In this document: positions 5,048 through 32,125 of the stretch, in pieces
How the letters are laid out: each line of letters starts with the position of its first letter
Position numbering within the stretch: position 1 is the stretch's first letter
Source of the DNA: an uncultured Roseovarius sp.
Lineage (GTDB): Bacteria; Pseudomonadota; Alphaproteobacteria; Rhodobacterales; Rhodobacteraceae
Length of the DNA: 36,417 nt
Direction: 5' to 3'
NCBI GenBank assembly: GCA_937884705.1
Contig: CAKZYL010000281.1
Coordinates: 1 to 36,417 of the forward strand
Program-made: the position numbers and the translations under genes
The notes under the pieces: model-generated
Told to the model about the DNA's origin: nothing
Seen by the model: the letters and a program-made list of their open reading frames with translations, nothing else
The model's database searches: none

Positions 5048-5059
5048 CTTGTACCTCAT

Positions 5060-6862: not shown

Positions 6863-7387
6863 GATCTTACTCCTGGCTCAACAGTGTTGAACAGCTAATC
6901 GTTTTACCTAGAGCCAACAGCACCTGGCTCTTAGATTTCGCGAATTGCGAACTCGCGCCTTTTCCACGGCCATCAAATTCGTAGTCATAGCGCGCTTTGG
7001 GTCTTGGGTCCGACCCAGTGGGTGGCAGAAATCAAACAGCCCTGCTCTGAGATGGCCAGTCCGAAGCGTCCGTTCAGTTGAATAATTGTCAAAGATTCCG
7101 GCAACACGCGCGGCGCTAGATTATTTTTTGAGCGCCAGTGAGCAGCAGGTGCAAAATCGCGAGTTTTTTCGCTGATAGTTATAGAAAGGTTAAAGCTCGT
7201 CACTAACGTTCATAGCACGGGCTGTGATCCCACCCTCACCGCGTACTTGTAAAACGTGATCTAGCTGCTTTGAGATCACCGATGCTTTTCTTGCGAAGAG
7301 ACGAGGGAACAGGATTTTGACCAGCCAAGGTTAACACTGAGTTTTTGAGCAACTTTTCGTTGCAACCATAAATCCGTGGGGGGTTTC
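6863..7387. promoter_or_regulatory. Divergent intergenic region between ExoF-like and ExoY-like genes, with inverted repeats
   Basis: Inverted repeats read directly: GTGATCT(7256-7262)-N10-AGATCAC(7273-7279); TGGGTC(7005-7010)-c-GACCCA(7012-7017); AGAGCCA(6910-6916)-N8-TGGCTCT(6925-6931). Confidence 0.45.
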
Positions 7388-8062: not shown

Positions 8063-8113
8063 AGAGACTTAACCCCTCATTTCTCCTCCTCTCAATGCTT
8101 TGAAAGCGAACCG

Positions 8114-9406: not shown

Positions 9407-9438
9407 ATCTAACTGAAATTGTTTAAGCTAGCTTAGTT

Positions 9439-11427
9439 ATGCAAGAAGCTCCTCAAGACGACCTAAGTCTACTTTTCGAAACGGTCAGATCGTCCGCTTT
9501 GTACATCTTGCTTGCGGGTTTGGTGTTTGGAGCGGGGGGCTACTTAACGGGCAAGCAATTGCCAAAAACCTATGAGGCTGAAGCTGTTGTTGTGTTGGGG
9601 GCACGCAGCAGCACAGCGTTTCAGGAACAAGAAGTGTACGCGCTACCTGAGGATGGAACGACACGCGCCTGGACGATGCGCGCTGAGGTGTCCGTCGCCA
9701 CCAGCCAAAAGATTGCAGAGAAAGCGTTAGCAACGCTGTCGGAAGAACAACTAGTCAACCTTTTGCCATCGGAATGGGAAACGACGACTAGCGGCCGCTT
9801 GTCGGACTTATTCGACGAAATTGAAGCGCCTTACAATGAGGCAGATGAAGAGACGCGTCGCGCGCTTGTTCGTGGCTACAAGGACAACATTTTTATTGGG
9901 AACGACCCAAACACATTTGTTCTGCGAGTGCGCGCTATCGCGGCCGAAAACACGCTCGCTGCGCACCTCGCCAATGCGCATGCCACCGCCTATGTGCAAC
10001 ACAATCTCGAACGCAAACATACCGAAATTGACCGAATTCTCAGGGCAATTGAAGAAGAACTGGGCAGCATAGATGCGAGCGCTTCTCAAACAAAGCAGCT
10101 CATCCAGGATCTCAACAAGAATGTACCCCAGCTTATCCAGAGCGGCCCTTCAATTGCGCAGGCGCAGCTTACCACGCTTATAGAACAGGTCGAAGAAACG
10201 CGCGATCAGCTCAGTTTAGCAAAACTCGATCTAAAACTCGCCCAGAACACCAACCCGCTTGATCTTGGCGAGGATGTCCAGAGATTGAACGAGGTCAGAA
10301 CTCAGCTGTATGAGGTTGAAACCCAAAAGCGAGAGTTTCAGGGCGCGACCAGCACTGAAGTGAGAAGTGCTTTGGAAAGACGAGAGCTATCGTTGCGAAC
10401 CATTCTCGAGGAGGGCGCGCAGGAAATCATTGCGACGAAAAAGATCCGAGTTGCATCGTTGGGCCAAAAACTAGAAACGCTTAATGTACGAGCTCGGGAG
10501 CTGTCGTCCCTTGTGAATGAGCATTTGGTCGTTCAAGCTCAAATTGATGACCTCTTGGAGACGTCTCGTGTTTATTCTTTGCGGCGCGCGGAACTTGAAA
10601 ACCGCCGCGCTGTAATTGAAGCAACAGCAGAGGTAATCGCAGCTGACGCGGAAATCATCGAAGCTGCAACACCACCCCTATTTCCACGATCTCCAAACTC
10701 CAAACTCCTCGGTTTGACGCTTGCTGTCTTTGGTGCATCGCTTGTGGTTGGCGTTAGCCTCTGGCGTAGACGGCGAAAAGGCGGCGTGCAATTCGATATG
10801 GGCCAACAGCCAAACGGTTTCCGCGAGGCTTTGATCGGCGTAGTACCCAGCGCACAGTCTGACACTCGCTCCACGTTAAATATGCAGCTACAGGAAGAGT
10901 ATGATCGCTCTATTGAAGCCGTGAGAGATCGGCTGATCCATCTTGTAGGATCGGCGGATAACGGTTGCCTTTTGGTAAAGCTGCACGCAAATTCTTCAGA
11001 CTGCGTTGTTTTTTTGAAATCACTGAAAAAAAGCTTCAAGGACTCAAAGTCAAAGCTGAAAATTGAAATTGAGGAACCACCTGACACGATTGGCAAAAGA
11101 GTAGCTGCTCTGAAGGTGTCGCGAGCCTTATCGCAAGCGGCGCAAGATTACCCAGGCAAGCGCAGTGCCAAAGTGCGAAACAGCACGATGCCAATCTCGG
11201 GCACGCGTGACGACAACGGCAAATACCCCAATACCGTCATACAAACTGACTTAAAAAAAGTAACTTACTCAATAAGCGTGGTCGACACGCGTTTGGCGAC
11301 GTCCAACGATTGGCGGATTGCATTTAACAACGTCAGTTTCCGTTCCAAAACGCTTGGTTTAGTTCTTGTCAACGCCACCACTATGAGCTCAGCGCCAAAA
11401 TGGTCTTCATATCGAGGAGCGGGGTGA
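9439..11427 (+). CDS. Wzz/Wzc-like polysaccharide chain-length/export protein with degenerate cytoplasmic domain lacking a P-loop
   Basis: Two TM segments (LYILLAGLVFGAGGYLTG; LLGLTLAVFGASLVVGVSLWRRRRK) flank a long coiled coil; PNSKLLGLTLA resembles the Wzc second TM; no GxGKT in the C-terminal domain. Confidence 0.8.
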   Translation: MQEAPQDDLSLLFETVRSSALYILLAGLVFGAGGYLTGKQLPKTYEAEAVVVLGARSSTAFQEQEVYALPEDGTTRAWTMRAEVSVATSQKIAEKALATLSEEQLVNLLPSEWETTTSGRLSDLFDEIEAPYNEADEETRRALVRGYKDNIFIGNDPNTFVLRVRAIAAENTLAAHLANAHATAYVQHNLERKHTEIDRILRAIEEELGSIDASASQTKQLIQDLNKNVPQLIQSGPSIAQAQLTTLIEQVEETRDQLSLAKLDLKLAQNTNPLDLGEDVQRLNEVRTQLYEVETQKREFQGATSTEVRSALERRELSLRTILEEGAQEIIATKKIRVASLGQKLETLNVRARELSSLVNEHLVVQAQIDDLLETSRVYSLRRAELENRRAVIEATAEVIAADAEIIEAATPPLFPRSPNSKLLGLTLAVFGASLVVGVSLWRRRRKGGVQFDMGQQPNGFREALIGVVPSAQSDTRSTLNMQLQEEYDRSIEAVRDRLIHLVGSADNGCLLVKLHANSSDCVVFLKSLKKSFKDSKSKLKIEIEEPPDTIGKRVAALKVSRALSQAAQDYPGKRSAKVRNSTMPISGTRDDNGKYPNTVIQTDLKKVTYSISVVDTRLATSNDWRIAFNNVSFRSKTLGLVLVNATTMSSAPKWSSYRGAG

Positions 11428-11431
11428 GGTC

Positions 11432-12568
11432 ATGGGCAAGCTTTTGAACGCGCAACGCGTTGTCTTTTTGTCTCATTCTGCCGAACTTGCTGGCGCCGAA
11501 ATTCTCATGCTACGCCTGCTCTCAGAGCCGATGTTTGACGACGTAAAAGTTCTTCTTTTTTCGCATGGCGAGTTGCGCGAAAAGTTTGCAGCTTTGGGCA
11601 TCTCCGCTTCCGTAATCGAAACGAAATCGCTGCATGACTTTCGTAGGAATGGCAGTGCTTTTTCCGCGCTGTCAAAGATACGACCAATGGTTGCAACCAC
11701 TAAAAACCTGTCGTCGCATTTGCGAAGCGGAGATCTACTTGTCGCAAGTTCACAAAAAGCTTTCGTTTTGGGCTGCTTGGTCAAAATGTTTCGCAAAGAC
11801 GTTGGCCCATTGATTTGGTGGTTGCACGACATACTGACCAAAGAACACTTTTCTTCGACAAATTTACGTACGGTTGTGCTTCTCTCGAAACTCTTTGCTT
11901 CCAAAGTGATTTGCACCTCTGAGGAAGTGCGTTCTGCGTATGAGGCGGCCGGTGGCAAGCGCAGTAAAGCAAGTGTCGTCGAGCCAGGGATTGATTTGAG
12001 AATTTTTACTGCGGAACACGAAACATCTCGCAAACGTACCAAAACGGCAATTAGTTTGAGCCGAATTAGCCCATGGAAAGGTCAGCGCAACTTTCTTGAC
12101 GCCCTCGCGTTGTTGCCTGACGCAAATGGGTTGATCGTGGGAGCCCCGCTTTTCGGCGAGCAAGACTATTTTGAGGACCTCAAGAAACATGCATCATCGC
12201 TTGGTTTAGATGATCGCGTGACGTTTATGGGACATCGCGATGACGTGGCGGAGGTTCTTCGCTCAGCCACTGTCTTCGTTCACGTTCCAGACGCTCCGGA
12301 ACCGTTTGGGCAGGTCGTGATAGAAGCCATGGCTTGCGGCTTGCCTGTGGTTGTATCAAACGAAGGCGCGCCGGGTCGCATTTGTAGCGGGGGAGGTGGA
12401 ATACTTGTGCCTCCCAACAATCCATCAAGGCTTGCTGAAGCGATCAACAAGGTAATGAGCAAGCCGGATTACCGGGGAGAGCTTGCTCGAAAGGCTAAGA
12501 CCATTTCAGCAAAGTACGACGCCGCATCTATGCGTCGGAATTTTCTCAGAGCTTTGAACGAGGTTTAA
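11432..12568 (+). CDS. Glycosyltransferase family 4
   Basis: AISLSRISPWKGQRNFLDAL, DDRVTFMGHRDDVAEVLRSATVFVHVPDAPEPFGQVVIEAMACGLPVVVSNEGAP. Confidence 0.93.
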   Translation: MGKLLNAQRVVFLSHSAELAGAEILMLRLLSEPMFDDVKVLLFSHGELREKFAALGISASVIETKSLHDFRRNGSAFSALSKIRPMVATTKNLSSHLRSGDLLVASSQKAFVLGCLVKMFRKDVGPLIWWLHDILTKEHFSSTNLRTVVLLSKLFASKVICTSEEVRSAYEAAGGKRSKASVVEPGIDLRIFTAEHETSRKRTKTAISLSRISPWKGQRNFLDALALLPDANGLIVGAPLFGEQDYFEDLKKHASSLGLDDRVTFMGHRDDVAEVLRSATVFVHVPDAPEPFGQVVIEAMACGLPVVVSNEGAPGRICSGGGGILVPPNNPSRLAEAINKVMSKPDYRGELARKAKTISAKYDAASMRRNFLRALNEV

Positions 12569-13426
12569 ATGTTAAATGAAAACAACAGATTAATAGATGA
12601 ATCTTCTGATGAGTTAGAGTCTCACAAGCTGTCGTGCATAATTCTTACCCGAAATGAAGAGGAGGTTATCGCGAGGTGTATAAACTCAGTGATCAAGGTT
12701 GCAGATGAGATTATAGTCTGCGACTCGGGCAGCGTCGATGGGACCATTGCAATCGCAACATCCCTTGGCGCGCATGTGGTCAATACCGATTGGCCAGGTT
12801 CTCACGGAATCGCGAGAAACAATGGCATGGCTCATGCTGCCCACGACTGGTGTTTGCATCTTGACGCAGACGAGATTGTCGATCGCGAAATGGGAAAGTC
12901 CATTCGTGAGGCGCTTAAACTTAAACCTTCCGAAAGCAAAGCCTTTTGCTTTACGCGACAAGCTGAATTCGCGGGGACGGCAATCCCTTCTTTACCTCGA
13001 CCCTCGAAAAGGATGGATCTTGTCCGCTTGTTTAGCAGACGTGTTGGACGTTTCACGACCGGCATGCATGAAATTGTGGTAGACACAAAAGAGCGCGAAC
13101 TTTTGCCTGGAAAACTTTACCATTGGCGCTCTTTCACGCTTCACGCGCGATTTGCGCAGTTTAATGACTATTCAGATAATGAAGCGGATGAAATCCATGC
13201 CAGTGGCAGCAGCTTCTCCGTCTTGCGGCTGATCTTTAAACCCTTCGCGCGGTTTGTATGGCACTACTTTTTCGATGGCTCTTGGAGGGTCGGAAAAACC
13301 GGCCTCATTCACGCTATGACCATGGCAATGGCAGAGTTTATGCGCCAGGCCAAACTATGGGAACGGCAACGCGGAACAGTAGAAGCTCCCAAGGTCGAAT
13401 ACTACGAGCAAATAGTCGAGCAATGA
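12569..13426 (+). CDS. Glycosyltransferase family 2 (WaaE/KdtX-like)
   Basis: LSCIILTRNEEEVIARCINSVIKVADEIIVCDSGSVDGT, WCLHLDADEIV, LYHWRSFT. Confidence 0.92.
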   Translation: MLNENNRLIDESSDELESHKLSCIILTRNEEEVIARCINSVIKVADEIIVCDSGSVDGTIAIATSLGAHVVNTDWPGSHGIARNNGMAHAAHDWCLHLDADEIVDREMGKSIREALKLKPSESKAFCFTRQAEFAGTAIPSLPRPSKRMDLVRLFSRRVGRFTTGMHEIVVDTKERELLPGKLYHWRSFTLHARFAQFNDYSDNEADEIHASGSSFSVLRLIFKPFARFVWHYFFDGSWRVGKTGLIHAMTMAMAEFMRQAKLWERQRGTVEAPKVEYYEQIVEQ

Positions 13427-14844
13427 CCGTGATCGGCTCGCCAGCCATCCAGAACACTGACCGTGAGCGCAGTGGTTTTGATCGATTGGGGCTTACACAT
13501 GCCTTTTTCGTTCTGGCAGCCATCTGCGCGTCTGCGTACTTAGGCGTTGGTAGCGCCGCGCGATATGCTTTTGTCGCCGCTGCTCTGGCGTTTGGCACTC
13601 TTTGGTTAGTTCGAGATCACCGCAGATATCTGATTTTTCTGATCTGTCTCTTTTTGTTTGCATCTCTAGCGCGGCGGATAATCGACCATGCTGTTGGGTA
13701 TGCAGATAGCAATGTTACTCTGCTTGCGCCCTACGCCGTGGGCTTGCTCACACTTGCCCATGCATTCAATTTTCTCGCCAGCGGAAGTCGGATGTCCGTA
13801 GAAATGATTGCATTGGTCTCTATCACCTTCTGGGCTTTTGCTCTTGGTGCGACAAGTGTTGGCTTAGGCGCAATTGCTGTCGACACGTTGCGCTGGTTTG
13901 CCCCTTTGGCCATATTTTGTTTTGTCATGACGCTTGAGGACGACCATGACTTGCACAAGGCGCTGACAGGCCCGCTCACAGCCGTGGCAGTTGTAGCAGC
14001 GCTATATGCCGTTTTACAGTTTTGTGCTCCACTTCCCTGGGATGTATACTGGGTTGAGAATGCGCCCATTGGTTCAGGTCCTCTGGGCATCCTTGGCAAA
14101 CCGGAGCCGTTTCAACTGCGGGTCTTTGGCACAATGAACTCGCCAGGAAGCCTGGCCGCAGCCCTCGCTGCGTTGGCGCTTTTGATTTTCGCCGCGAGCG
14201 GTCCAAGGGTCTTGACTACGCTGATGCTCATCTTTGCGGCTATTTCTCTCACTCAACAAAGAAGCGTCATGGGTGGGCTTGTAGTCGGTATTTTGGTCTT
14301 GTTGGCTTTAGGCGCGAGCAACCTGCGTCTGCGGATCTTACTGTTTGCCGCTTTTGGCTGCGTGTTTGTGCTTGTCGCGATCTCAATGCAGCCTGATATT
14401 GTCCAAGGTATTCTGCAAAGGTTTGCCGTAGGCGGATCCTTGGGTGACGACGGCAGTTTAGCCGCGCGCCTGCGTCAGTTGGAAATCTACCCGAGCTTGA
14501 TTGCAGAACGCCCGTTTGGATATGGTTTCGGCTACAGAGGCGTTTTGAGCATCGAGAACGGTGCATTGCCCTTCGTTTTGGACAATGGCTTTCTTGATCT
14601 GCTTTTCAACGTCGGAGCACCCTTTGGCGTTGTTTACTTGCTCGCGCTCCTGTCTCTTGTCCTGTCGGCACTGGCAATTGGTGTGGTACAGCGCCATTTT
14701 GCGCTCTGCGCCGCGTGCGCGTCCATTTGCCTTTTGGCGCAACTTCCGTTTGGGAGCGTGCAAACCAGCGAGCACGGTTTTTTTGCTTTCTTGAGTCTAG
14801 CGTTGGCATGCCACTCAAAGGCAAGCTCTAGTTATGAAAGATGA
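13423..14844 (+). CDS. O-antigen ligase/polymerase-like membrane protein (Wzy)
   Basis: Multiple TM segments, FGTMNSPGSLAAALAALALLIF, SLTQQRSVMGGLVVG, ERPFGYGFGYRG. ATGA overlap with the upstream stop supports 13423 over the tracked 13258 start. Confidence 0.85.
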   Translation: MTVIGSPAIQNTDRERSGFDRLGLTHAFFVLAAICASAYLGVGSAARYAFVAAALAFGTLWLVRDHRRYLIFLICLFLFASLARRIIDHAVGYADSNVTLLAPYAVGLLTLAHAFNFLASGSRMSVEMIALVSITFWAFALGATSVGLGAIAVDTLRWFAPLAIFCFVMTLEDDHDLHKALTGPLTAVAVVAALYAVLQFCAPLPWDVYWVENAPIGSGPLGILGKPEPFQLRVFGTMNSPGSLAAALAALALLIFAASGPRVLTTLMLIFAAISLTQQRSVMGGLVVGILVLLALGASNLRLRILLFAAFGCVFVLVAISMQPDIVQGILQRFAVGGSLGDDGSLAARLRQLEIYPSLIAERPFGYGFGYRGVLSIENGALPFVLDNGFLDLLFNVGAPFGVVYLLALLSLVLSALAIGVVQRHFALCAACASICLLAQLPFGSVQTSEHGFFAFLSLALACHSKASSSYER

Positions 14845-16333
14845 TTTGGCCAAAGCAGAACTCCCTCAGGTCGGCAAGGCGCAAAGCAGCGGTCTAAAAA
14901 CCTCGGCCATTTCTGGGGTTTTGACGTTAACTGCGCGGACTGTTTACATTCTTTCGCAGATTGTATTGGCTCAATCCCTTGGACCAGAGCAGTTTGGTTA
15001 TTTCGTGATTGCCTGGACCGTTGCGGGGCTGGGGATTGTATTCTCCAGCCTGGGTTTGCCGCAAACTTCTTTGCGTTACACAGTCGCTGGACACCATCTT
15101 TGGGGCCAGGGATATCTCGGCCTTTCGGCCATATCGAGTTGTCTGGTTGGTGGCTTGATCTTTGCAACAGCGCCTTTTGTTGCAGAACGTTTTTTTGACG
15201 CTCCAGGCGCCACCAATGCGATCAAGGCGCTTGCGTCAATCGTTCCGTTAACAGTGATATGTGCTCTGCTGGGCGCGGGTTTTCGGACTGAAAAAAGAAT
15301 AATACTGGGCATTTCGGTCAATTCCATTGGGCTAAACGTCGGACCTTTTCTAGGTGTAGCGTTTACGGCCTTGTTTCTTGACCCGACACCAGAGGCCTTT
15401 GCTTTAGGTTGGTCAATCGGTCTAACGCCAACTCTGTTAATTGCCTTACTCAAAACGCGCCGTAGCGACGTTCAGCCCAAGGCGGCTCGGACGATGGAAA
15501 AGCTTCGATTTGGTATTCAAAGCCTCGGCGTTCACTCGGTCAACATCATAAACATGTGGGTTGACCGTCTCATGATCGGCATGCTCACCACTACGACTCA
15601 ATTGGGCCTGTATCAGGCAGCTTCGCTTCTTTCCATGATCCCAATGATGCTGGGCACAACGATTGGTGCAGTGTACGAAGCCAAATTGGCACAAGCAAAA
15701 ACAATAGAGGAACGAAGTGAAGTCTATGCAGAAGCTCAAATGCTTCAGGTTCACCTTGTCACGCCAGGTTCTGTTTTGTTGATTTTTACTGCCTCTATCT
15801 GGCTTGAACTTTTCTTTGGAAACGAGTTCGAGGTCAGCGCGCCGTTTCTTGGGCTTCTGCTTCTAGGCCAAACTCTAAAGGCTTGGTGTGGACCTGCGCT
15901 GATTGCCTTGAACATGGGCGGATATGCTGGAACAGCGCTGTTAATCACCGGAGGCGGTTTCGTCACCAACGTTGGGTTGAACTTTTGGCTGATAGGGCAG
16001 TTTGGCGGTCTTGGTGCGGCCATAGCGACTATGGCCGTCACCACATGCGTTGCACTTATAGCATTGTACTGCTGCGTTTCTTACGGGTTAATTCGCGTAT
16101 ATCTGCATGGCTTGTTTGCGGCATTAATCAGCACCGCAGGGTTAATCGTAATTTATTTCGGTTTAAGAACCTTTTTCGAGCAGTGGATTGTCTTTGACTT
16201 CGTTTTGGTTGTTTTCTTGATTGCGGTCTATGCGATTTTGGTCGCGGTCGTTCGAGTTCCCCCGGCATACGATCTGTTTTCACTCGAAATGCGCCGCAGG
16301 CTCCTGGCGTGCTTTGCAAGGATTTCGACATAG
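14834..16333 (+). CDS. Polysaccharide flippase (Wzx/MVF-like)
   Basis: LTARTVYILSQIVLAQSLGPEQFGYFVIAWTVAGLG with many TM segments; typical Wzx N-terminus. Confidence 0.9.
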   Translation: MKDDLAKAELPQVGKAQSSGLKTSAISGVLTLTARTVYILSQIVLAQSLGPEQFGYFVIAWTVAGLGIVFSSLGLPQTSLRYTVAGHHLWGQGYLGLSAISSCLVGGLIFATAPFVAERFFDAPGATNAIKALASIVPLTVICALLGAGFRTEKRIILGISVNSIGLNVGPFLGVAFTALFLDPTPEAFALGWSIGLTPTLLIALLKTRRSDVQPKAARTMEKLRFGIQSLGVHSVNIINMWVDRLMIGMLTTTTQLGLYQAASLLSMIPMMLGTTIGAVYEAKLAQAKTIEERSEVYAEAQMLQVHLVTPGSVLLIFTASIWLELFFGNEFEVSAPFLGLLLLGQTLKAWCGPALIALNMGGYAGTALLITGGGFVTNVGLNFWLIGQFGGLGAAIATMAVTTCVALIALYCCVSYGLIRVYLHGLFAALISTAGLIVIYFGLRTFFEQWIVFDFVLVVFLIAVYAILVAVVRVPPAYDLFSLEMRRRLLACFARIST

Positions 16334-16341
16334 CAGAAAAA

Positions 16342-17355
16342 ATGAAAAAAAGCCGTCAAGCTACGCTGCAACGAACTTGGGAACATCCCGAACTCACTGA
16401 AATGTCAGAGCGTATGCATGCGCAAGGCATCGCGCCAAATCTGTTCCTGGTAGGAGCCCAGAAGTGCGGTACCACCACGCTCGCGTCGCTCATAGCGAAG
16501 CATTCTGATGTCTTCTTCTCAAGGATCAAAGAACCAAACTTTCTAAGCTTCGATGTACGGCCAGCTGAATTTACCGGCGATTTCAAAAAGTTGCACATAG
16601 AGGATGAAAACGCTGCACTGAAGCGATCTTGCACAGAGGATGTCCTCTACGCTTACATTGAAAATCCCGCAATTTATCAAGCCTTGTTCGAAGGTTCGTC
16701 GCAGTTTTCCATTCGTGCCGAAGGCTCCGTGACCTATCTTTTTTCGAGTGAGGCACCGTCTGCCATTGCAACACTTTTTCCGAGTTCCAAGATACTGGTC
16801 ATTTTGCGTGATCCGGTGAAGCGCGCGATATCAAACTATCGAATGCAATTTCAGGCTGGGGTCGAAACAGAACCAGATGTCTTCAAGGCCATCATGAATG
16901 ACCATGCAAAAGCATCATACACATGGGGCACAAAGCACTTCTATGTTGAGAGTGGCCGATACGCGGATCAGTTAGTGTCGTATTTTGATTTGTTTCCTAA
17001 GTCGCAAATCCACATTGCTTTCTTCGAAGAACTCTTTGGCAAGAAAGACGAAGTTGCAATTGCCAACCTAGCAGCGTTTCTTGGATTGGACGAATTCAAG
17101 CCAGAAGAAGACGCTCAGAAAAACGCCAGTCTTAAACCCAGAAACGCGGTGATAAACAAGCTGCTCTTTAAATCTGGTCTGAAGCGGCAGATTCAGCGCT
17201 ATGTGCCAAAATCGCTGAAAGACTTCGGTAAGACGTTGTTTTACGAGGAAGGTTCGTCACGTCTGGACCAAGGCGAAATGGAGCAACTGCAAGATCTTTT
17301 TCAAAGTGATCGAGATAAGTTAGAAAACCTGCTTGGCCGGCCAGCGCCTTGGTAG
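16342..17355 (+). CDS. Sulfotransferase domain protein
   Basis: PAPS-binding motifs NLFLVGAQKCGTTTLASLIAKH and KILVILRDPVKRAISNYRMQ; KEPNFLS. Confidence 0.93.
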   Translation: MKKSRQATLQRTWEHPELTEMSERMHAQGIAPNLFLVGAQKCGTTTLASLIAKHSDVFFSRIKEPNFLSFDVRPAEFTGDFKKLHIEDENAALKRSCTEDVLYAYIENPAIYQALFEGSSQFSIRAEGSVTYLFSSEAPSAIATLFPSSKILVILRDPVKRAISNYRMQFQAGVETEPDVFKAIMNDHAKASYTWGTKHFYVESGRYADQLVSYFDLFPKSQIHIAFFEELFGKKDEVAIANLAAFLGLDEFKPEEDAQKNASLKPRNAVINKLLFKSGLKRQIQRYVPKSLKDFGKTLFYEEGSSRLDQGEMEQLQDLFQSDRDKLENLLGRPAPW

Positions 17356-17405
17356 GCGGAAACTGCCTTAAATTTCGATCGCCGAATTGGGCAATTCTTA
17401 TGGGT

Positions 17406-17425
17406 CTATGACAATCTATGACAAT
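17406..17425 (+). repeat. Perfect tandem duplication of a 10-mer
   Basis: CTATGACAAT CTATGACAAT; the second copy supplies the stop codon of the minus-strand GT4. Confidence 0.8.
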
Positions 17426-18597
17426 AGAGACCGCGCTCGATCTGGGCGCTTTGCGTGGCTTTCAAAATACCCACCCATCCGATCCGCCATTGCATCGAGT
17501 GTGAAATTCTCGCGCGTCGCCGCAAGGCCCCGTGTTGCAAGTTCTTTTAAGCGACTGGGGTTTTTCCTTAAATCCGAAACCAATCCCATCAATGCGCGAG
17601 GGTCTCCTTCTGGAAAGATTAGTCCTCCTTTCGTCTGCTCGATCACTTCAGGTATTGCGCCTGAGTCACTGCCAAGAACAGGTGTACCACAAGCCAAAGC
17701 CTCAATAATCAAACGGCCGAATTGTTCTTTCCATCCAGGGTAAGATAGCGACGGCATAACGATGACGTCACACGCCGCCAATACGGGCGCCAAATCACTT
17801 TGGTTCGTGGGTGGCACAATGTGAAGCTGGTTTGCTATGCCTCGGTCCCGCGCACGTCTTTCCAATGCATCTTGCTCCGGACCTTGACCGACCAAAACAA
17901 TCTGAACTGACTCATCTTTAAGCATAGAAACTGCATCAATAAGGTCAGAAAGCCCTTTTTCCGGCACAAACCTACCTGCAAAACCGATCAAAAACGATTT
18001 TGGGTTATTGGTTATCCGCTTCCGCCAGGTGTTTTCTTTGCTCAGCCTGGCATCGAAGATTGAGGTGTCAACGTATAGTGGCATGTCGCAAATCTCGCCG
18101 TTGAACCCTTTACTACGGGCTAAGTCCGTTGCTTCTGAGCTGATTGGAAATAGGAAAGTCGCACCTTGCAAAACCTTTTTTTCAAAGTTTGAAATTGGAA
18201 AAGGAAAGGTTTTGAAAATGTTCTGGCTGGCATAGAAACCAATTGGAACGCCAACTCCGCGACGATTGGCGCGAAAGAGTTGGTACGCCGCCAGCATGTA
18301 ATAGTCGTGGTAGCCATAAATGATATCAGGCTTTGCTTTGGACAGGATCTTCCCAAGATCCGCTATGTATAGGTGTTTCGGCACGCTGGATCGAAAAGCG
18401 ACTGGTCTAGTGACGAAGTCGCCTCGGAAACCTGTGTGTTTTTGCGAAACCACGCAACTTTGACCAAAGGGGTTCATCCACTTTTCAGGCGCTAAGATTG
18501 TAACGTGGATATCAAAGCGCTCCATCAACCTTATGTATAAGCTTTGTTTTTTTGTGAAGGCGCAATTGTGATCCATTACAAATAGACGGAGAGCCAT
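17416..18597 (-). CDS. Glycosyltransferase family 4
   Basis: FLIGFAGRFVPEKGLSDLIDAV, VIVMPSLSYPGWKEQFGRLIIEALACGTPVLGSDSGAIPEVI. Confidence 0.93.
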   Translation of the reverse strand: MALRLFVMDHNCAFTKKQSLYIRLMERFDIHVTILAPEKWMNPFGQSCVVSQKHTGFRGDFVTRPVAFRSSVPKHLYIADLGKILSKAKPDIIYGYHDYYMLAAYQLFRANRRGVGVPIGFYASQNIFKTFPFPISNFEKKVLQGATFLFPISSEATDLARSKGFNGEICDMPLYVDTSIFDARLSKENTWRKRITNNPKSFLIGFAGRFVPEKGLSDLIDAVSMLKDESVQIVLVGQGPEQDALERRARDRGIANQLHIVPPTNQSDLAPVLAACDVIVMPSLSYPGWKEQFGRLIIEALACGTPVLGSDSGAIPEVIEQTKGGLIFPEGDPRALMGLVSDLRKNPSRLKELATRGLAATRENFTLDAMADRMGGYFESHAKRPDRARSLLS

Positions 18598-18686
18598 TTA
18601 ACTGTCCCATGCGTGCTGCAGATTATCGATAGAGACATCGGCAACGCGACAGGTCAACACGCCGCAAACCCCTGAGCTGTAAAAGC

Positions 18687-20735
18687 TTAAAAGTTTAGCT
18701 TGCACCACCACCGATTTGGTCCATCGCCGCCAAAAGTGGCCCCAAAAGATTCATCGGATCGGTTCGCAACCCGGATGTGTCCAGGTTCGTCATGTGAGGC
18801 AGTCCACAGAGCGTTATTGCTTGCATTGCTTTGGCCCCCAGCGACATTGATCGGAAAAAACCCTGAACTGGTGGTCGCAACGGCCAGCATGTTGTCCTTG
18901 GTCCAATCAAAGTTCTCTTCAAGCGCGACGCCGACCGCCATCACGGAGTCCGAGTTGAATTGGCCACAGAAAAGACCGGCTATTCCAACCAAGTCGAACC
19001 TTTTTGCAGCTGGATAATTAGTGGTTCCAAATCGAAAAAGAGTACCAGCCCAACCGTTCCCTTCAAGTTTGATCACGCCCCTAGGCACATGACCATGGTT
19101 TGCAATATGAAAAAACTGCAATGATCTGCTGTGCGCCGCAGATATAAATCCGTCGCAACTGTCAATGTAGACGTCTTGAGGCAAATCAGTAGCTCGAAAA
19201 GTTGCTTGATCGCGCGGCCGCCAACGATCTGGGTCCACGCTTCTTACAATCGAGACCCGTCTCCAGCGTTTAACGTCAATCAGTGCGGCCCTGGGAATAC
19301 TGCCACGGTACCCATTGGAAGACGCAGGAAACGAGGTTTGGGTGCCATGAACCTCGCGAAAAATGCAGTTTTGTAATGTCGTGTCGCGTAACTCATGACG
19401 GCGTGTAAGGTTACCCTCAGCAAAAACAGCATTGCCCACGCTCTCGAACTGACAGTGGCTCCATAAGCCTGTAACAAAATCCCTCCAATGCCCCTGATGC
19501 ACAGAGAGGGCTTGCGCGTCGGAGTAATCCTCATTTGTGCCTTCTTTGTAAACTGCGTACGGCGCTCCACCAACAAAACAGGTGTCTACGTGCCCGTACC
19601 AACCTGCATCAGGCGCAAGTGCAATGGCGGCAAAGCGTCCGGAGATATTGCACTTCTGCAAAACAAAATCCCCATGCGCAGCTTCTGTGAAAGTTACGTA
19701 AAGACCGTAATAGCATCCGTCGGTAAATAGTAGTTCTGCTGTTTTTTGACCGCCTCGCCAATTCACGCCGACGTGAAATCCGGAGACGAAAACACTCCTA
19801 ATGACTGTGCGTTCCCCTGCACTTATGCCACTATAGTTTTCGTAAATTTGCCCAATTCTTGGATTTTTCGGATTGTAAGCCTTCGTCCAGTCATCGGGTT
19901 GAAAACCATAACGCTCGACAAACCCGGCTTCACTTTCGGGGGCATTCCAACCACGCCAATTGCCCGGTCCCATGATGCTGAAATGGGCGAGCTCGCAGTC
20001 TGCATGCAGGTGTAAATGCTCGCCACTCCAAGACACGAAGCCGTTTTCAACATTTGCAAGCCGCGGTTGAACGACGTAGTTGTCATGGATCGGAGCTTTG
20101 TTATCACGCCACTGCAGTATCGTTGCGCCACGCCCGTGACCGTGGATGTTCACGGTAGGTTGATTTTTCCAAATCCACACATCGTTGGCGGGATAGAAAA
20201 GACTGCGATTGAAACGGCCAACGCCAGAAGGCAATTGGACCACGGCACCAAATCTAGTAGAGGACTTATCCCAATCCAAAACAACTTGGTTAATAGCTGC
20301 TTGGGTGGCGGCCCAGTCTATTTCATCTTCCAAGCTGTCTGCATGCGGATAGACAACTTGTGCGTCTTCTAGAGCCTCAAAAAAATCCGAGAGTGGGTGA
20401 GATTGACCGTCCCAAATCGCACCAAAGTTGATGGCGTGGTAATGTGAGGTTTGCCTAGCGTTTTTGATGCTTTCGGGAAGTGCATCCAACGACACTTGTC
20501 CTTTGTCGTTCAGTCTAAGTAACTGCCCGGACAAGTCAGTATCGCCCCCTTTGTCGGTGCTGCGCTCGAGGTCTTGCTCGACTGATACTATTCTATCAAG
20601 CGCTTCTTTTAACGCCGGCGACAAGATTGAATGGACGTCTGCTGTAGGCAAATAGGTGTCTCCCTTACTTTCGAACGCAGCAGATGCTGCGGATTGCAAA
20701 AAGAATTGCAAGCAACCTCTACGATTGGTTTTCAT
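18687..20735 (-). CDS. Right-handed beta-helix/pectate-lyase-like (tailspike-like) protein with Tat-like signal
   Basis: N-terminus MKTNRRGCLQFFLQSAASAAF; tail-fibre-like GQLLRLNDKGQVSLDALPESI; INFGAIWDGQ followed by WAATQAAINQ and VQLPSGVGRFNRSLFYP...NIHGHGRGATILQW as in tailspike/pectate lyase entry regions. Confidence 0.7.
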   Translation of the reverse strand: MKTNRRGCLQFFLQSAASAAFESKGDTYLPTADVHSILSPALKEALDRIVSVEQDLERSTDKGGDTDLSGQLLRLNDKGQVSLDALPESIKNARQTSHYHAINFGAIWDGQSHPLSDFFEALEDAQVVYPHADSLEDEIDWAATQAAINQVVLDWDKSSTRFGAVVQLPSGVGRFNRSLFYPANDVWIWKNQPTVNIHGHGRGATILQWRDNKAPIHDNYVVQPRLANVENGFVSWSGEHLHLHADCELAHFSIMGPGNWRGWNAPESEAGFVERYGFQPDDWTKAYNPKNPRIGQIYENYSGISAGERTVIRSVFVSGFHVGVNWRGGQKTAELLFTDGCYYGLYVTFTEAAHGDFVLQKCNISGRFAAIALAPDAGWYGHVDTCFVGGAPYAVYKEGTNEDYSDAQALSVHQGHWRDFVTGLWSHCQFESVGNAVFAEGNLTRRHELRDTTLQNCIFREVHGTQTSFPASSNGYRGSIPRAALIDVKRWRRVSIVRSVDPDRWRPRDQATFRATDLPQDVYIDSCDGFISAAHSRSLQFFHIANHGHVPRGVIKLEGNGWAGTLFRFGTTNYPAAKRFDLVGIAGLFCGQFNSDSVMAVGVALEENFDWTKDNMLAVATTSSGFFPINVAGGQSNASNNALWTASHDEPGHIRVANRSDESFGATFGGDGPNRWWCKLNF

Positions 20736-21388
20736 TTGCTTTGCTTTCTCTTCGATTTGGTAAATTGGGAGTTCTTTTACTTTATCTTAGGTTCTAGATT
20801 TTCGAGGATCTGAGCCGCTTGGACAGGATATCAGGATCTTTTCTCCACCTCCATTCACACTTCCTAAGATGTAGCTTGAGCAGCAAGCCGCCTTTCGATT
20901 AAGCCTTCGCTGCTGTTAATGTCGAAGTCTTGGTCGGTGAGCAGTTCGGACTTCTCGCATTACTCCTTTACAGAGAATTGTGTGTCGGATCACCCAATCC
21001 GAGTGAGATAAAGGTCTAAAACTTGGAACGTGTTAGCGTCATCGTATGTAAAACTGCATCACTGCCCGCGCTGAAAAAGATAGGAACATAAACGTTTAGA
21101 ACCTGCGTTTAATTGAACCAGCGTCGACCCAGATTGCATTGGATCAAGAATTCCAGAATGCATTCTTGTCCTTGCGATCCATTCGGCTGATTTAAACGGA
21201 CGAGCCAATCCAAAGTTGGGTCTGTTCGATGGCCAGATCGATACTTCTAGAAAGCGAGTTGCGTACACCTGAAACGCACATGATCGAAGAAAGTATTGCG
21301 ATGCGTCCTTTGATTGCGCTTCTCTGACTTGATCACATCTGGCCGCCTCAATCAGAGTAAGGCGGCAAGACCCAAAAAGGAGATTAGG

Positions 21389-22733: not shown

Positions 22734-23570
22734 CTAGACCGACCAAGTTGGAAAGCTGAGCCCCGTCATCGCCCGGAGCTTTTGCGCATCCGCGCGCAGA
22801 TCATCAGCAAAGCTCATGCGCAGCCCATCAGGAAAGACCGGCGGTTTGCGCGACGGGCGCAGAGCCAGCGCGTCGCGAATGCGGTCCCGCGTGCTTCGCC
22901 CCACGAGGCCTGCTGCGCGACGTCCAAACGGCGATTGTGCAAAGCGCAGGATCGGTGCGGGCACTCTGGAAATCTCCGCGCTGTCATTTCTAGCATCCGC
23001 ATTGGAAAGCGGTCGTGCGGCCACGCCGATATGGGCCGTCACCTTGTCCATCACGGCCTGCGGGGCGCGGACGAGCTCTGCAAAATCGAGGATGAGAATG
23101 GCCTCTTTGCGAAAGTACTGAAGGTAGGTTTCAAGCTGCTCGGCATAGAGGCTCCCATCCAGAATGTGCGCGTATTCATGCTTGGATTGGAAGTCATTTA
23201 GATCGGGCGACAGCGCGCCCATGAAAACGCCATGGTGGAATTGCGACTGCGCACGATCGATGGGATCGCGCAGAATATAGATCAGTTTGACGTCCGGGCA
23301 GACCTGAGCCATGCGTTCGGCCACGCCCGGAAAATCCCGGGACTTGGAATAGTTCGGGCTGGCTTCCCCACGCACCGCATCTGCCCGCGAAAACTGATTG
23401 CTGTACCATCCAAGACCGCGCGACCAGTTCTTTTCTGATACGAAAAAATCCGTTTCCTTGTCGCGCGACATGTCAACATCCGGGTGCTCATCGAGATGCC
23501 GATAGAGTGTCGTTGTTCCCGATTTCATGGCCCCAATGATGATGAAATGCGGCAGCAGCAGGTCTGTCAT
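22734..23570 (-). CDS. Sulfotransferase domain protein
   Basis: HFIIIGAMKSGTTTLYRHLDEHPDV, KETDFF, VKLIYILRDPIDRAQSQFHHG. Confidence 0.94.
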   Translation of the reverse strand: MTDLLLPHFIIIGAMKSGTTTLYRHLDEHPDVDMSRDKETDFFVSEKNWSRGLGWYSNQFSRADAVRGEASPNYSKSRDFPGVAERMAQVCPDVKLIYILRDPIDRAQSQFHHGVFMGALSPDLNDFQSKHEYAHILDGSLYAEQLETYLQYFRKEAILILDFAELVRAPQAVMDKVTAHIGVAARPLSNADARNDSAEISRVPAPILRFAQSPFGRRAAGLVGRSTRDRIRDALALRPSRKPPVFPDGLRMSFADDLRADAQKLRAMTGLSFPTWSV

Positions 23571-24490
23571 TTGGGTGGCGCCTGCGCGGGCGCGGCAACT
23601 ATGCCGTCACCGTAAAGATCTCTTTGCCGAAACCGCAGACAACCAGCACAGACGCCCGCATGAATCCTCCCCCGCAGGAGCCAGAACGCACGCCGCGTCA
23701 TCCAGGGCCAGGCCGCCAGCGCCTGCAGATGGCAATAAGCTGTCTTGAGCGCAGCGACTGCAAAAAGCTTGGCAAGCGCGCCGGGTTCCGAGGCCACGGC
23801 AGAATAGCTTTGACCGATGCGGAAGCGCCTCTTCAGAAGCCAGTTTAGATCTTGGCGAGCAGCCGGCACCTCTTCGTGCACGATGGCATTGTCGGCGATG
23901 GCATAGCGCGCACCAAGCGCCCGCAACCGAAAGAAAAATTCCGTGTCCTCGCCCCCGGATCGACCACGTTCAAGCGCAAACCGTTCATGCCTCCATGGCA
24001 CATCCCCCCACCGCAAAAGCGCGTTGCAGGTGTGCCCGGTCTCGACCACATCCCCACGGCGAGCCGCGACTTGGGAATGGAAATCTCCGTCGACCATCCA
24101 CTGGGGCGTGTCCGGGCCGTAGCGTGCGCGCATATGGCCAAACGCGGCGTCCACCCCGGTGGCGTTTACACAGGTGATCAATGCTGTCAGCCAATCAGGC
24201 TCCACAAGTTCATCATCATCGAGAAAAGCGATCCAATCCCCCGTTGCGGCATCAAGCCCGCCATTGCGCGCGATAGAAATGTTGGAACCGGGTACATGTC
24301 GGTAGTCGATGGTGAGCCCGGTGTCTTTTGCCACCTCAGCGACACGTGCTTGTGCAGATGGGGCGTCATCATTGTCGATGACGATGACGCGCAGGGCTAC
24401 CCCGGCCGGGATCTTGGCCCGCGCGACCGAGCGCAACGTGTCAGCTATGTGGGAGCGCCTATAGGTGCAGATGCACAGATCAATCTTCAT
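23567..24490 (-). CDS. Glycosyltransferase family 2 (ExoM-like)
   Basis: MKIDLCICTYRRSHIADTLRSVARAKIP, WIAFLDDDELVEPDWL, GGEDTEFFFRLRALG. ATGA overlap with the upstream stop gives start 24490. Confidence 0.92.
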   Translation of the reverse strand: MKIDLCICTYRRSHIADTLRSVARAKIPAGVALRVIVIDNDDAPSAQARVAEVAKDTGLTIDYRHVPGSNISIARNGGLDAATGDWIAFLDDDELVEPDWLTALITCVNATGVDAAFGHMRARYGPDTPQWMVDGDFHSQVAARRGDVVETGHTCNALLRWGDVPWRHERFALERGRSGGEDTEFFFRLRALGARYAIADNAIVHEEVPAARQDLNWLLKRRFRIGQSYSAVASEPGALAKLFAVAALKTAYCHLQALAAWPWMTRRAFWLLRGRIHAGVCAGCLRFRQRDLYGDGIVAAPAQAPPK

Positions 24491-25509
24491 CGTGGCGCGC
24501 CTTTGATCATCTGCAGCAGGAACCCCGCGCTCCACACCATGTGCATCGTAAAGAGAACCGGCCCGACCCAAAGCGCGCACAGGCTGCGCTTACATGTCAG
24601 GGTTTTCAGCGTGACGGCGGCGAGCAGCGTGAGGTACGCCACGGGCACCAGCAAAGCCATCGGCAGGACAGGCGCCAGCATGAGCCCGACCAGATTGCTG
24701 AGGAAGATCACGGGCGGTATCACCTGTCGCAACCGGGGCCGCATGCGATGTTTGAGAATATTGTGCGCCCGCCACATGCCATAGTGCCAATACTGCACCG
24801 AGAGCCGCCGCAAAGACGGCCGCATCATGTAGTTCAACCGGATCGTGGCATCCAGCCAGATACGCCCGCCGGCCAAACCGATGCGGTGATCAAGCTCCGC
24901 GTCTTCATTGGCCACAAAGGAGGGATCATAGCCGCCCACCTTGCGAAACATATCGAGGTCAAAGCCTGCATTGTGACCATGATCGACCCAGCCTGAACGC
25001 GTGCCGCCCCGGTGACCAGATCCGCCCGAGCCGAGCTTGCTCTCCATCGCCCAGGCGGCCCCGCGCTGAAAGCAGGCCTCGCCCATTGAATCCATCACTG
25101 TGCCGAGCCCTTGGGCGCCTCGTGCAACCAAGCTTTGAGCCACGGACATCACATATCCCACGGGGTAGTCGGAATGAGCATCGGCCCGCACAAGGATAGA
25201 GTGATGGGGATCGGCCGCATGCTCCACAACCCGGTTGATCGCCGCAGATTGGATGCGGTCGGGATTTTCGATCAGGTGAATATTGCGATGATGGGCCGCC
25301 ATATCCTTTACGATCTCACGGGTTTTATCGGTGCTTCCTCCATCTGCCACGACCACCTTGAACGGAAGCGAGCCATCCCCGATCAAGGCCTTCAGCGTTG
25401 CGCCAATGTGCTTATCTTCATTGAGCGTCGGGATCGCTACCAAGACGGATCTTGGATCAACAGATGCGCGGTCTTCGAGCGTCAGTACTGGGTCAGAACT
25501 GTCCATCAT
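24487..25509 (-). CDS. Glycosyltransferase family 2 (ExoA-like)
   Basis: SVLVAIPTLNEDKHIGATLKALI, VVADGGSTDKTREIV, FVANEDAELDHRIGLAGGRIWLDATIRLNYMMR. Confidence 0.92.
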   Translation of the reverse strand: MMDSSDPVLTLEDRASVDPRSVLVAIPTLNEDKHIGATLKALIGDGSLPFKVVVADGGSTDKTREIVKDMAAHHRNIHLIENPDRIQSAAINRVVEHAADPHHSILVRADAHSDYPVGYVMSVAQSLVARGAQGLGTVMDSMGEACFQRGAAWAMESKLGSGGSGHRGGTRSGWVDHGHNAGFDLDMFRKVGGYDPSFVANEDAELDHRIGLAGGRIWLDATIRLNYMMRPSLRRLSVQYWHYGMWRAHNILKHRMRPRLRQVIPPVIFLSNLVGLMLAPVLPMALLVPVAYLTLLAAVTLKTLTCKRSLCALWVGPVLFTMHMVWSAGFLLQMIKGAPR

Positions 25510-26714
25510 CGCGCCTCCTGCATCACGCGATCGATCACGTCCGAGAGCTCATTGCGGGATTGGACAAACGCGTCCATTGGACGGTCGAGCAAAGCCTGCC
25601 CGCGCGCCATGATCTCTTTGCGTTCAAGCCGGTTGAGCAACTCTATCAAGAGGTCTGGATCGGCACGCTCAATCACCCAGCCGAGCTTGTCCTCAGCGAC
25701 CCGGCGCCCGGTTTCTGTGGTGGCTAGAGCGATGTTGGGACATCCCGCCCAGCTCGCCTCATAAATTCGGTTGGGCAACAGCCAATCAGAGTTATTGCCG
25801 GTTTGCCAAAGGTCCTGTGACCAGACCAGATCAAGCCCGGCGTAAACATCAGCAAGACCGTCAGGATACGCATAAGGCCCGTGAAAGGTGATGTTGTCAT
25901 GCTCGGCGATCGCAGCGTTAAAACCTGGCAGCGCGTGATCATGCACAACGCCGTGAATGTGCAGGTGGAGCCTCGGGCCCAACCTGACTGCCACGTCTTT
26001 GAGCAGGGCGAGGCTGGGTGCGCAACGGATTGTCCCCACCCAGCCCAGACGCAAGGGCGTGTCTGGGGCGGAGACCTCCCGCATCTTGGGACGTGGCGGC
26101 AGTGCAGCACCGGCGGCAAGTTTGTTCTCCCAAATCGCCCAGGCACCCCGATAGCCCTGTATCGGTTGAAAATAGTTGCGCACAAAGCCCTGGCTTGACA
26201 CCACCAGCATCTGAACCCTGGCCAGGAGAAATCGCTCGGCCGCCCGCATGATCCGTGCTTTCGCACCGGAGCCGCAGAGCGCCCCGTTGATGTCGAGACA
26301 CTCGTAGACCAGCGGCGCCTGCCTGGCCCCGGCCAGCGCACGCGCCGCCCAAGCGATGACCAGCATGTCAAGATTGCGCGCAATGATGACGTCTGCTTGA
26401 CGCATTTGCTGCCGATGAAACATCATCTTCAAAACAGACGCAGCAACCACGCGGGCGCGTTTCAAAAGGTTTTCATTCTCGGTCGCGTAGAGATGTGTGT
26501 TGGGCCAGTCAGGCTCAAACCGCTGCTGCATATTGTTGCGGCGCATCGTGAAACTGTGCACCTTGTGACCCAGGCTGCGCAGCGCGCGGATGCGGCGGAT
26601 CTGAGAGATTTCAGCCACGTCAAACCCAAAAACCTCGAGCCGAAGCGCATCTGCGATACCCATGTCCGGTGTCTCAGCCAACGCGATGCTGTTGACGTCA
26701 TGCGCTTGGTCCAT
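25506..26714 (-). CDS. Glycosyltransferase (GT4-like/ExoL-like)
   Basis: EISQIRRIRALRSLGHKVHSFTMRR, RLGWVGTIRCAPSLALL, NRIYEASWAGCPNIALATTETGRRV. Confidence 0.82.
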   Translation of the reverse strand: MDQAHDVNSIALAETPDMGIADALRLEVFGFDVAEISQIRRIRALRSLGHKVHSFTMRRNNMQQRFEPDWPNTHLYATENENLLKRARVVAASVLKMMFHRQQMRQADVIIARNLDMLVIAWAARALAGARQAPLVYECLDINGALCGSGAKARIMRAAERFLLARVQMLVVSSQGFVRNYFQPIQGYRGAWAIWENKLAAGAALPPRPKMREVSAPDTPLRLGWVGTIRCAPSLALLKDVAVRLGPRLHLHIHGVVHDHALPGFNAAIAEHDNITFHGPYAYPDGLADVYAGLDLVWSQDLWQTGNNSDWLLPNRIYEASWAGCPNIALATTETGRRVAEDKLGWVIERADPDLLIELLNRLERKEIMARGQALLDRPMDAFVQSRNELSDVIDRVMQEAR

Positions 26715-26757
26715 CCGGTGTCACCTTATCCCTTTCTTTGCGAGGGAATGGATCACG

Positions 26758-29079
26758 TCAGCCGTCATAATCCATGATCTCGTTTTGATTGAACAATCGG
26801 TACTTTCTGATGTTGGCGCGCGAGAACACGACGCCCATAATCCGGCTGGTCGGCAAAAGCCGGTTTTGGAAAACCCATTTCACATGACTGCGCTGCGTGA
26901 CGCCCCACCGCACCGTGTAGATCAGCCGGTGACACAGCTTTGCCAGCAGCCTCGTGTCGGCGACCCCCTGCACTGGCGGAAGATCAAGCACGATGACGTC
27001 GAAATGGTCTCTCAGACGGGCCAAAAGCGCGTCTAAATGTGCATGGTCCTGCATCATCGTGACGGGTCGCTCGGTGTTCTTCGGATTGGCGATGACCGCC
27101 AGATTTGGAAACTCGGGAATTGGCTCAATGCGCGCCACGCTGTCCGGTTCCAGGTCGATAAGCTTCGACAAGTCGTTGCTCTCAGGCAGCAACGGATCAA
27201 TCAGTCGTGACATCTGCCAATTCGCAACATCAAGATCAACGATCACAACCCGCTCATTCTGCTGCGCCAAGAAACTTGCAAAATTAAAGGCGACCGTCGT
27301 CTTACCCTCTCCCTGGGTTGTGGACGTGAAGCCGATGATGTTGCCTTTGGCAACGCTGGCGGATTTTTCCCGCTGCAGCTTGAGTTGCACATGCATGGCG
27401 CGCATGGTTTCTGCGCTCACCGATGACGGCTCGCGGATGGCAAATCCAAGCCGCTGACCTGCACGAGAGAGATTCTTGGATGTATGGCTGGCCACAGATC
27501 CAAACCTGAGGGTCCATGGGCGTATCAAACCATCAGCCTGGAACTCTGAGGCAAAGTTCGGCACCAGACCCAGATAGTTCAGTCCCAAGTCATGGCTGAC
27601 ATCATCTTGGGTGCGGAAGCTGCCATCGAACGCTTCTCGGACAATCACAACGCCCATCGCCAGCACCATCGCTCCGAAGACGGCCAGCACCACGATCTGG
27701 CGAGATTGCGGCGCGGATTTCTTATCTGGCGGGACGGCCCAAGCAATGACGCGCGCCGATGTCCCTTCAAATGTGAGCAGCTGGGAAGAGCTGTTAAATT
27801 CTTCGAGCAATTGCTCGTAAAGCTGGCGTTTGGCGTTGGCTTCACGCTCCAGATTGAGCAGCTCAACACTCCGTTGAATGTTGTCACTGTAATCGCCGCG
27901 CATGTCCTCAATCACTGTCTCGATGGCACTGAGCTGGCGCGCCAAGGCATCCCGGCGCGCGGCCAGCCGGTCGCGCACTTGCCGGTATTCATCCAAAATC
28001 AAAGAGCGTATCTGATCCTGCTGTTGCCGAAGCCCGACAACGACGGATGAGTCTTCTGACCAATTCAGCAAAAGCTCGGTCTCTTCGCGCAGCAACTCAG
28101 CAAAGCGCGTTTGGAATTCATTCAACGCGTTGGATCGCTCTTCTAGCGGCACTTGCACCGCCTCAATCTCGCCCTGTGCGATCTGTTCGGTGAGTTGCTG
28201 GACCTGCACATCGACGACCAGAACATCACCGCGCAGGCGGATCAGCTCCTCGACGGCAGCGTTGAGCGCCACCTCGCTTGGCAGCAATTTGTCGGGAAGC
28301 GCCACAAGCTCATGTTCGCTGCGAAACGTCGCCACGGCTGTTTCGGCGTCTCGCACGCTGATTTGCAGCGCCTCGATACGTTCCGACAACCAGTCGCGCA
28401 TCCGCTCCACATCCTGGCGTTGCCGCTGTCCGGACGCACGCAGATATTCCTGCATCAGCGTGTTGACGGCTTCTGCGGAAAAGGCCAGATCGGGGGAGGT
28501 GTAGGTGATGTCGATAACATAGCTGTCACCCGCCCTTTCGGCCGACAGACCTTTCACAAAACGCCGGCGCTCTGCTTCGAGGCGTCTGACAACCTTGAGA
28601 TCATCGGGCAAAGCCATGGCCTGCGACGTCGCCGCATCGATCCCAAACATGCGTTGTAGGCGTTGGCGCAATGAGGGCGCGGCACGCTCTCCACCGCCCT
28701 GTCCAAAACGATTGGCGACATCGAGCGCGAGCATGGTTTGCGATGTCACCTCGCGTGAGGTCAGAACACGCAACTCACTGTCGACCGTCAGTTCATCCAG
28801 CGACCCAATGGCCGATATGGACTGCGGACGATTATCGAGCGCCTCACCCTCTCTCGGGTCGATCAAGAGAGACCCGTTGGCGGTGTATTGCGCCTGCGCT
28901 GTCAGGACATAGTAAACAGAGCCAACGAGAGACAGCACAAAAAAGAGCGCGAACAGTCGCCGATTGCGCAACAGTTTGAGCCATGCCTCACGCAGGGTCT
29001 CTCCCATTTCAAGCGGCGGCAGAAAGGTGTCTCTGTCTGATGCTTCGGGCGTTACGAGGGAAAACCGAGGCGCGTTCAT
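26758..29079 (-). CDS. Wzc/ExoP-like polysaccharide co-polymerase with BY-kinase domain
   Basis: Wzz N-terminus, coiled coil, second TM, NIIGFTSTTQGEGKTTVAFNFASFLAQQNERVVIVDLDVAN (Walker A and A'), DVIVLDLPPVQGVADTRLLA. Confidence 0.95.
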   Translation of the reverse strand: MNAPRFSLVTPEASDRDTFLPPLEMGETLREAWLKLLRNRRLFALFFVLSLVGSVYYVLTAQAQYTANGSLLIDPREGEALDNRPQSISAIGSLDELTVDSELRVLTSREVTSQTMLALDVANRFGQGGGERAAPSLRQRLQRMFGIDAATSQAMALPDDLKVVRRLEAERRRFVKGLSAERAGDSYVIDITYTSPDLAFSAEAVNTLMQEYLRASGQRQRQDVERMRDWLSERIEALQISVRDAETAVATFRSEHELVALPDKLLPSEVALNAAVEELIRLRGDVLVVDVQVQQLTEQIAQGEIEAVQVPLEERSNALNEFQTRFAELLREETELLLNWSEDSSVVVGLRQQQDQIRSLILDEYRQVRDRLAARRDALARQLSAIETVIEDMRGDYSDNIQRSVELLNLEREANAKRQLYEQLLEEFNSSSQLLTFEGTSARVIAWAVPPDKKSAPQSRQIVVLAVFGAMVLAMGVVIVREAFDGSFRTQDDVSHDLGLNYLGLVPNFASEFQADGLIRPWTLRFGSVASHTSKNLSRAGQRLGFAIREPSSVSAETMRAMHVQLKLQREKSASVAKGNIIGFTSTTQGEGKTTVAFNFASFLAQQNERVVIVDLDVANWQMSRLIDPLLPESNDLSKLIDLEPDSVARIEPIPEFPNLAVIANPKNTERPVTMMQDHAHLDALLARLRDHFDVIVLDLPPVQGVADTRLLAKLCHRLIYTVRWGVTQRSHVKWVFQNRLLPTSRIMGVVFSRANIRKYRLFNQNEIMDYDG

Positions 29080-32113: not shown

Positions 32114-32125
32114 TACTTTGAGTCC

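Follow-up and report, generated by a model that had tools for sequence, protein, structure and literature searches.

The window analysed here (the whole 36,417-nucleotide stretch, contig CAKZYL010000281.1 of an uncultured Roseovarius sp.) carries an EPS locus, locus 1, that by Pfam annotation is a complete Wzx/Wzy system and includes a sulfotransferase. Its genes are ordered as export protein, initiating sugar transferase, GT4, Wzz-like protein, GT4, GT2, Wzy, Wzx and sulfotransferase, with a further GT4 and the gene of main concern here, the spike gene, on the opposite strand. The frame of the spike gene is open from 18687 to 20735 and has an ATG start; an earlier note on this DNA had described the same open reading frame, which is real, but had given no strand for it, and that strand is minus. 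All the stretches quoted in that note are present in the translated product (P0001): NRRGCLQFFLQSAASAAF at residues 4-21, SPALKEALDRIVSVEQDLERS at residues 39-59, GQLLRLNDKGQVSLDALPESI at residues 69-89, and INFGAIWDGQ...WAATQAAI...VQLPSGVGRF at residues 102-176. The features are as follows.

5000-21000, no strand: low-GC island with locus 1 and the spike gene, GC 0.48-0.52 versus 0.55-0.61 outside (composition profile)
5504-13426, both strands: rest of locus 1, with export protein (minus) and initiating sugar transferase, two GT4, Wzz-like protein and GT2 (plus) (Pfam)
13402-14844, plus strand: Wzy polymerase of locus 1 (PF04932; reciprocal best hits in spike loci)
14834-16333, plus strand: Wzx flippase of locus 1 (PF13440, 2.2e-21)
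16309-17355, plus strand: sulfotransferase of locus 1 (PF00685, 3.9e-14)
17416-18597, minus strand: GT4-family glycosyltransferase, downstream of the spike gene after an 89-bp gap (PF00534, 4.3e-35; reciprocal best hit in the Roseomonas mucosa spike locus)
18687-20735, minus strand: spike gene, encoding the tailspike-like beta-helix protein P0001, 682 aa (open frame, translation, fold model, Foldseek)
20670-20735, minus strand: twin-arginine-like signal, residues 1-22, MKTNRRGCLQFFLQSAASAAFE (Tat-like rule; RR starts in relatives)
20562-20630, minus strand: helical, possibly coiled-coil stalk, residues 36-58 (model helix at 40-58, low confidence)
20469-20531, minus strand: putative linker, residues 69-89 (likeness to phage GKVPxxQLP not supported)
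20286-20432, minus strand: beta-helix entry module, residues 102-150 (phrog_13768, 4ru4, alignment A2)
19176-20258, minus strand: predicted right-handed beta-helix, residues ~160-520 (AF2 with 15 sequences, Foldseek, homology of the head-less protein to L034/L021)
19443-19670, minus strand: stretch with the candidate catalytic acids D356, E398 and E431 (conservation; function inferred)
18690-19175, minus strand: C-terminal region, residues 521-682, without detectable relative (hhalign negative; pLDDT <50)

Locus 1 is strain-specific and probably acquired, as 84 further same-genus genomes contain neither its Wzy nor the spike. A second EPS locus of normal GC lies at 22734-36314. Besides two sulfotransferase-like genes it has its own Wzy, Wzx, Wzc-like kinase and export protein, and its polymerase (Wzy2) resembles Wzy proteins found on Phaeobacter and rhizobial plasmids.

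The start of P0001 was compared with a Tat-like rule (RR, a hydrophobic residue at +4 and at least 13 uncharged residues), which it passes with 15 uncharged residues. The rule is passed by 13 of 22 family members versus 6 of 287 non-family neighbouring ORFs, a background drawn from local ORFs and not genome-wide, and several of the family members failing it have textbook starts (MKRRTFLRAG, GRRSFLKG, MKRREILKG). The source genome encodes tatA and tatB, along with a tatC gene cut by a contig end. The Tat-like N-terminus described earlier is thus upheld, and P0001 is probably exported in a folded state via Tat, as far as its sequence can tell. The accompanying remark that this route would be unusual for such a protein does not stand: WceF of Pantoea stewartii, a trimeric, tailspike-like protein encoded in an EPS cluster that hydrolyses stewartan, carries a Tat signal (PMC7949094), and RR signals are present in many relatives of P0001. 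Export is not universal in the family, as no signal is seen at the annotated or probable start of the homologues from Roseomonas sp. KE0001 and Skermanella.

Residues 69-89, in which an 'LxxLDxxGKVPxxQLP' linker of phage tail fibres had been recognized, do fit a loose form of the pattern, as do 0.7% of shuffles. Upstream of the head, the pattern is found in only 1 of 106 relatives, no more than in shuffled sequence, and residues 1-102 match no family in a PHROG search; the likeness to the phage linker is therefore not supported.

What follows resembles tailspikes beyond chance. Residues 92-150 match phrog_13768, a PHROG tail-protein family (9.5e-14), and residues 102-150 match the sequences of 4ru4, the LKA1 gp49 tailspike (E = 5.3e-12), and of the phi297 tailspike crystal structure (4e-11), with 64% identity to phi297 gp61 over the 47 aa of the beta-helix entry. 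This bears out the tailspike-like entry region proposed in the earlier note. In LKA1 gp49 the virion-binding part comprises residues 1-167 and the beta-helix begins at residue 181 (PMC5701251), which would place the shared stretch where the catalytic module begins, outside the virion-binding part. Beyond the entry module, the rungs of P0001 are not alignable to gp49 by sequence, including the region of the gp49 active-site residues Asp497, His499, Arg459 and Arg329 (PMC5701251). P0001 matches no Pfam or NCBIfam family, the pectate-lyase-type families PF12708 and PF13229 included, although some relatives do match these two.

An AF2 model built from P0001 alone has a pLDDT of 31, while the one built from alignment A3 (15 sequences) is a right-handed beta-helix with a pTM of 0.56 and a mean pLDDT of 54; pLDDT values are mostly 75-90 in residues ~90-180 and 300-400, weaker in 211-300 and below 50 in 521-682. 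The best Foldseek matches of this model in the PDB are the LKA1 and phi297 tailspikes (4ru4, 3.6e-9, and 4ru5), followed by other tailspikes, a GH87 glucanase, AlgE epimerases, an alginate epimerase/lyase and V. cholerae RbmB, and its matches in BFVD are mostly tail proteins of the pectate-lyase type. P0001 without its head is homologous to L034 and L021 (~1e-11). Structure prediction and Foldseek, the check proposed in the earlier note, therefore return a beta-helix with tailspikes at the top, and both the tailspike kinship and the beta-helix of P0001 are supported by sequence and predicted fold. The AlgE4 and AlgE6 mannuronan epimerases are also among the fold and profile matches, and an EPS locus would be a natural place for a polymer-modifying enzyme, such as an epimerase acting after polymerisation in the manner of AlgE or AlgG; that P0001 is such an enzyme and not a depolymerase seems quite improbable, since tailspikes are the best matches and the known tailspike-like proteins of EPS loci cut the chain. 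Within the helix, D356, E398 and E431 do not vary in A3, and among 12 wider core members they are kept in 11, 11 and 12, respectively; their conservation makes them candidate catalytic acids. With some stretches confident and others not (mean pLDDT 54), the model does not resolve active-site geometry.

The C-terminal domain of the Azospirillum EPS spikes is matched by Phage_cement_2 (PF09956) in 9 of the 15 A3 members (e.g. L022, 436-535 aa; best 1.1e-5), which accounts for the 'DUF2190' annotation of these spikes. P0001 has no Phage_cement_2 domain; hhalign comparisons of its C-terminus with the Roseomonas C-termini and with the phage-cement-like Azospirillum domain were negative, and homology to the latter was rejected.

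Searches of genome and viral contigs with the single P0001 sequence found no relative, and relatives were obtained by searching with the entry-module alignment. Scanning 84,980 species genomes for this module yielded 16 loci, 13 of which are EPS loci (11 from Azospirillum, the others from Roseomonas and Pararoseomonas); the remaining three are a Sphingomonas prophage, a Paenibacillus gene with a sugar ABC transporter as neighbour (these two assigned by visual inspection of their ORFs) and a contig too short to place. Plasmid matches in Roseomonas, Skermanella, Azospirillum and Sphingomonas sit within annotated EPS loci. The Pararhizobium plasmid match lies in what we consider a capsule locus, because its neighbours are a KpsF-like SIS/CBS protein, pyruvyl transferases, an ABC-2 permease and an export protein. 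Spike relatives thus recur in EPS or capsule loci of six other alphaproteobacterial genera (Azospirillum, Roseomonas, Pararoseomonas, Skermanella, Sphingomonas and Pararhizobium). Profile matches in genomes of the same class and family were generic beta-helix proteins without an HPLSE-type entry and were set aside.

Several of these loci have other features of note. In Azospirillum, a large protein with two CBM60 stretches is encoded after the spike (L004:15052-17781 and equivalents), and the Roseomonas and Pararoseomonas spikes are adjoined by a gene similar to that of a Roseomonas carbohydrate-binding protein. The Paenibacillus eucommiae gene (L028:9560-11440) encodes a Tat-type spike that has this entry module too, and its position beside a sugar ABC transporter suggests a catabolic use.

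Viral contigs contain at least 97 tailspikes with this module, and nearly all of the 80 that were fetched have only the entry module in common. Two viral-contig beta-helix proteins (L107:7866-10091 and L116:7881-9497) are related to the EPS spikes past that module; they have RR signals (MKRREILKG and MNRRNLLRS) and lie next to further proteins whose starts look signal-like. The tree of entry modules covers a short stretch (~90 columns) and has weak support in most of its parts; we use only the group that joins P0001 to the Roseomonas EPS spikes (support 0.91), in which there is no phage. With EPS-locus spikes as the closest relatives of its head, P0001 is not a recent capture from a known phage; that it is a domesticated phage tailspike, as had been suggested, is still plausible.

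A spike borne by a particle, be it of a prophage remnant or of a gene transfer agent (GTA), and lying near an EPS locus by chance, would have the same entry module, as this is common to phage tailspikes. There is also a precedent in TspA of the Rhodobacter capsulatus GTA, a biofilm-degrading, GTA-regulated spike whose gene lies apart from the GTA cluster (PMC13420450). TspA, however, adjoins lysS and is near-universal in GTA-bearing Rhodobacterales (PMC13420450), whereas the P0001 gene lies in an EPS island and is absent from the 84 same-genus genomes. As none of the examined neighbours of the spike is a phage gene, no phage family covers residues 1-102 and relatives recur in EPS loci, we consider a particle-borne origin of P0001 highly improbable.

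Beyond their general setting, the spike loci share particular genes with locus 1. Reciprocal best hits of its Wzy and of GT4a, GT4b and GT4c are found in the Skermanella and Azospirillum spike loci, those of Wzy, GT4b and GT4c in the Roseomonas mucosa spike locus, and those of some glycosyltransferases in other spike loci of the Roseomonas group. The locus 1 Wzy (Wzy1) matches only 16 of 72,556 plasmids, and a spike match is found on 11, with 5 plasmids having both; the chance of this overlap is ~1e-16 over all plasmids and 0.004 over the 132 EPS-type plasmids, bearing in mind that plasmids are not independent. Wzy2 has 307 plasmid matches and no reciprocal hit in the compared spike loci.

Rhizobium tumorigenes and Methylocystis possess loci with related Wzy and glycosyltransferases that contain no spike, and a ~440-aa unrelated gene is found among them (L135:16888-18216 and L136:13312-14622, both unannotated). 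These genes have NEP/NEG...TEF/TEA motifs, with one weak GH5 match below cut-off (E = 0.022), and from these motifs we read them as clan-A-type glycosidases; the Methylocystis one begins with TRRSLIGS, an RR signal. This suggests, without proving it, that the spike and the glycosidase-like gene occupy one enzyme slot in related loci. There could then be a conserved class of alphaproteobacterial EPS loci with an interchangeable slot for a Tat-exported glycan cutter matched to Wzy, a tailspike-derived beta-helix in some lineages and a barrel-type glycosidase in others, which would act with Wzy and Wzz in setting chain length, a generalization that we offer tentatively.

The exchange also bears on whether P0001 might be a catalytically dead, secreted lectin or scaffold whose beta-helix holds on to the EPS, cross-linking or anchoring it without cutting. 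WceF agglutinates with stewartan and cuts it slowly (PMC7949094), and P0001 lacks any enzyme family match in Pfam or NCBIfam, both of which would fit such a role. The retention of D356, E398 and E431 in diverged members argues against it, as does the apparent presence of an unrelated glycosidase-like gene in place of the spike in related loci, and we find a purely binding role unlikely.

It seems likely, then, that P0001 is a processing enzyme dedicated to the locus 1 EPS, exported by Tat and cutting the polymer of its own locus. The trimming or release of this polysaccharide put forward in the earlier note is the best reading, and it has a biochemical precedent in WceF, mutants of which make larger stewartan (PMC7949094). 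P0001 would be exported folded, would form a tailspike-like right-handed beta-helix, perhaps as a trimer, and would cut the Wzy-made, probably sulfated polymer within the chain, as a hydrolase or a lyase, using acids such as D356, E398 and E431. Its site of action could be the periplasm, where the chain is still growing, or the matrix outside the cell, and the outcome would be chain-length control and the release or softening of the matrix. If this is true, bacteria have taken tailspike-type enzymes into their EPS loci on more than one occasion, independently of WceF, and have paired them with a particular type of polymerase. The family would then give a genetic handle on the length and release of Wzy-dependent EPS, and would supply polymer-cutting enzymes matched to alphaproteobacterial EPS, with that of Azospirillum and marine sulfated polymers among them.

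Among known systems, TspA resembles P0001 in being an alphaproteobacterial spike, but the P0001 gene is rare and has EPS genes and not lysS as neighbours; its identification as a GTA TspA is rejected on gene context and distribution. V. cholerae RbmB is a beta-helix lyase of a biofilm locus that cuts the cell's own matrix polysaccharide (PMC11637428) and is matched by the P0001 model (Foldseek E = 2.6e-3), but the two have no sequence relation and our search saw no tailspike entry module in RbmB. LKA1 gp49 and phi297 gp61 (4ru4, 4ru5; PMC5701251) share the 47-aa entry with P0001 and are its best fold matches; P0001 differs from them in having an RR-type signal instead of a virion-binding domain, an EPS context instead of a phage one, and later rungs that BLAST does not align. 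The closest parallel in kind is WceF, likewise the product of an EPS-cluster gene, with a Tat signal (rule-based in P0001) and a right-handed beta-helix (predicted in P0001). The head of WceF is of the P22 type and its neck of the CBA120 type, whereas P0001 has by sequence neither of these and carries an LKA1-type entry module instead, and PDB sequence searches with P0001 or A3 returned no WceF chain. Differing from WceF in both head domain and sequence, P0001 therefore represents a separate lineage of the same kind, and on these sequence comparisons its family is a previously undescribed one, distinct from that of WceF.
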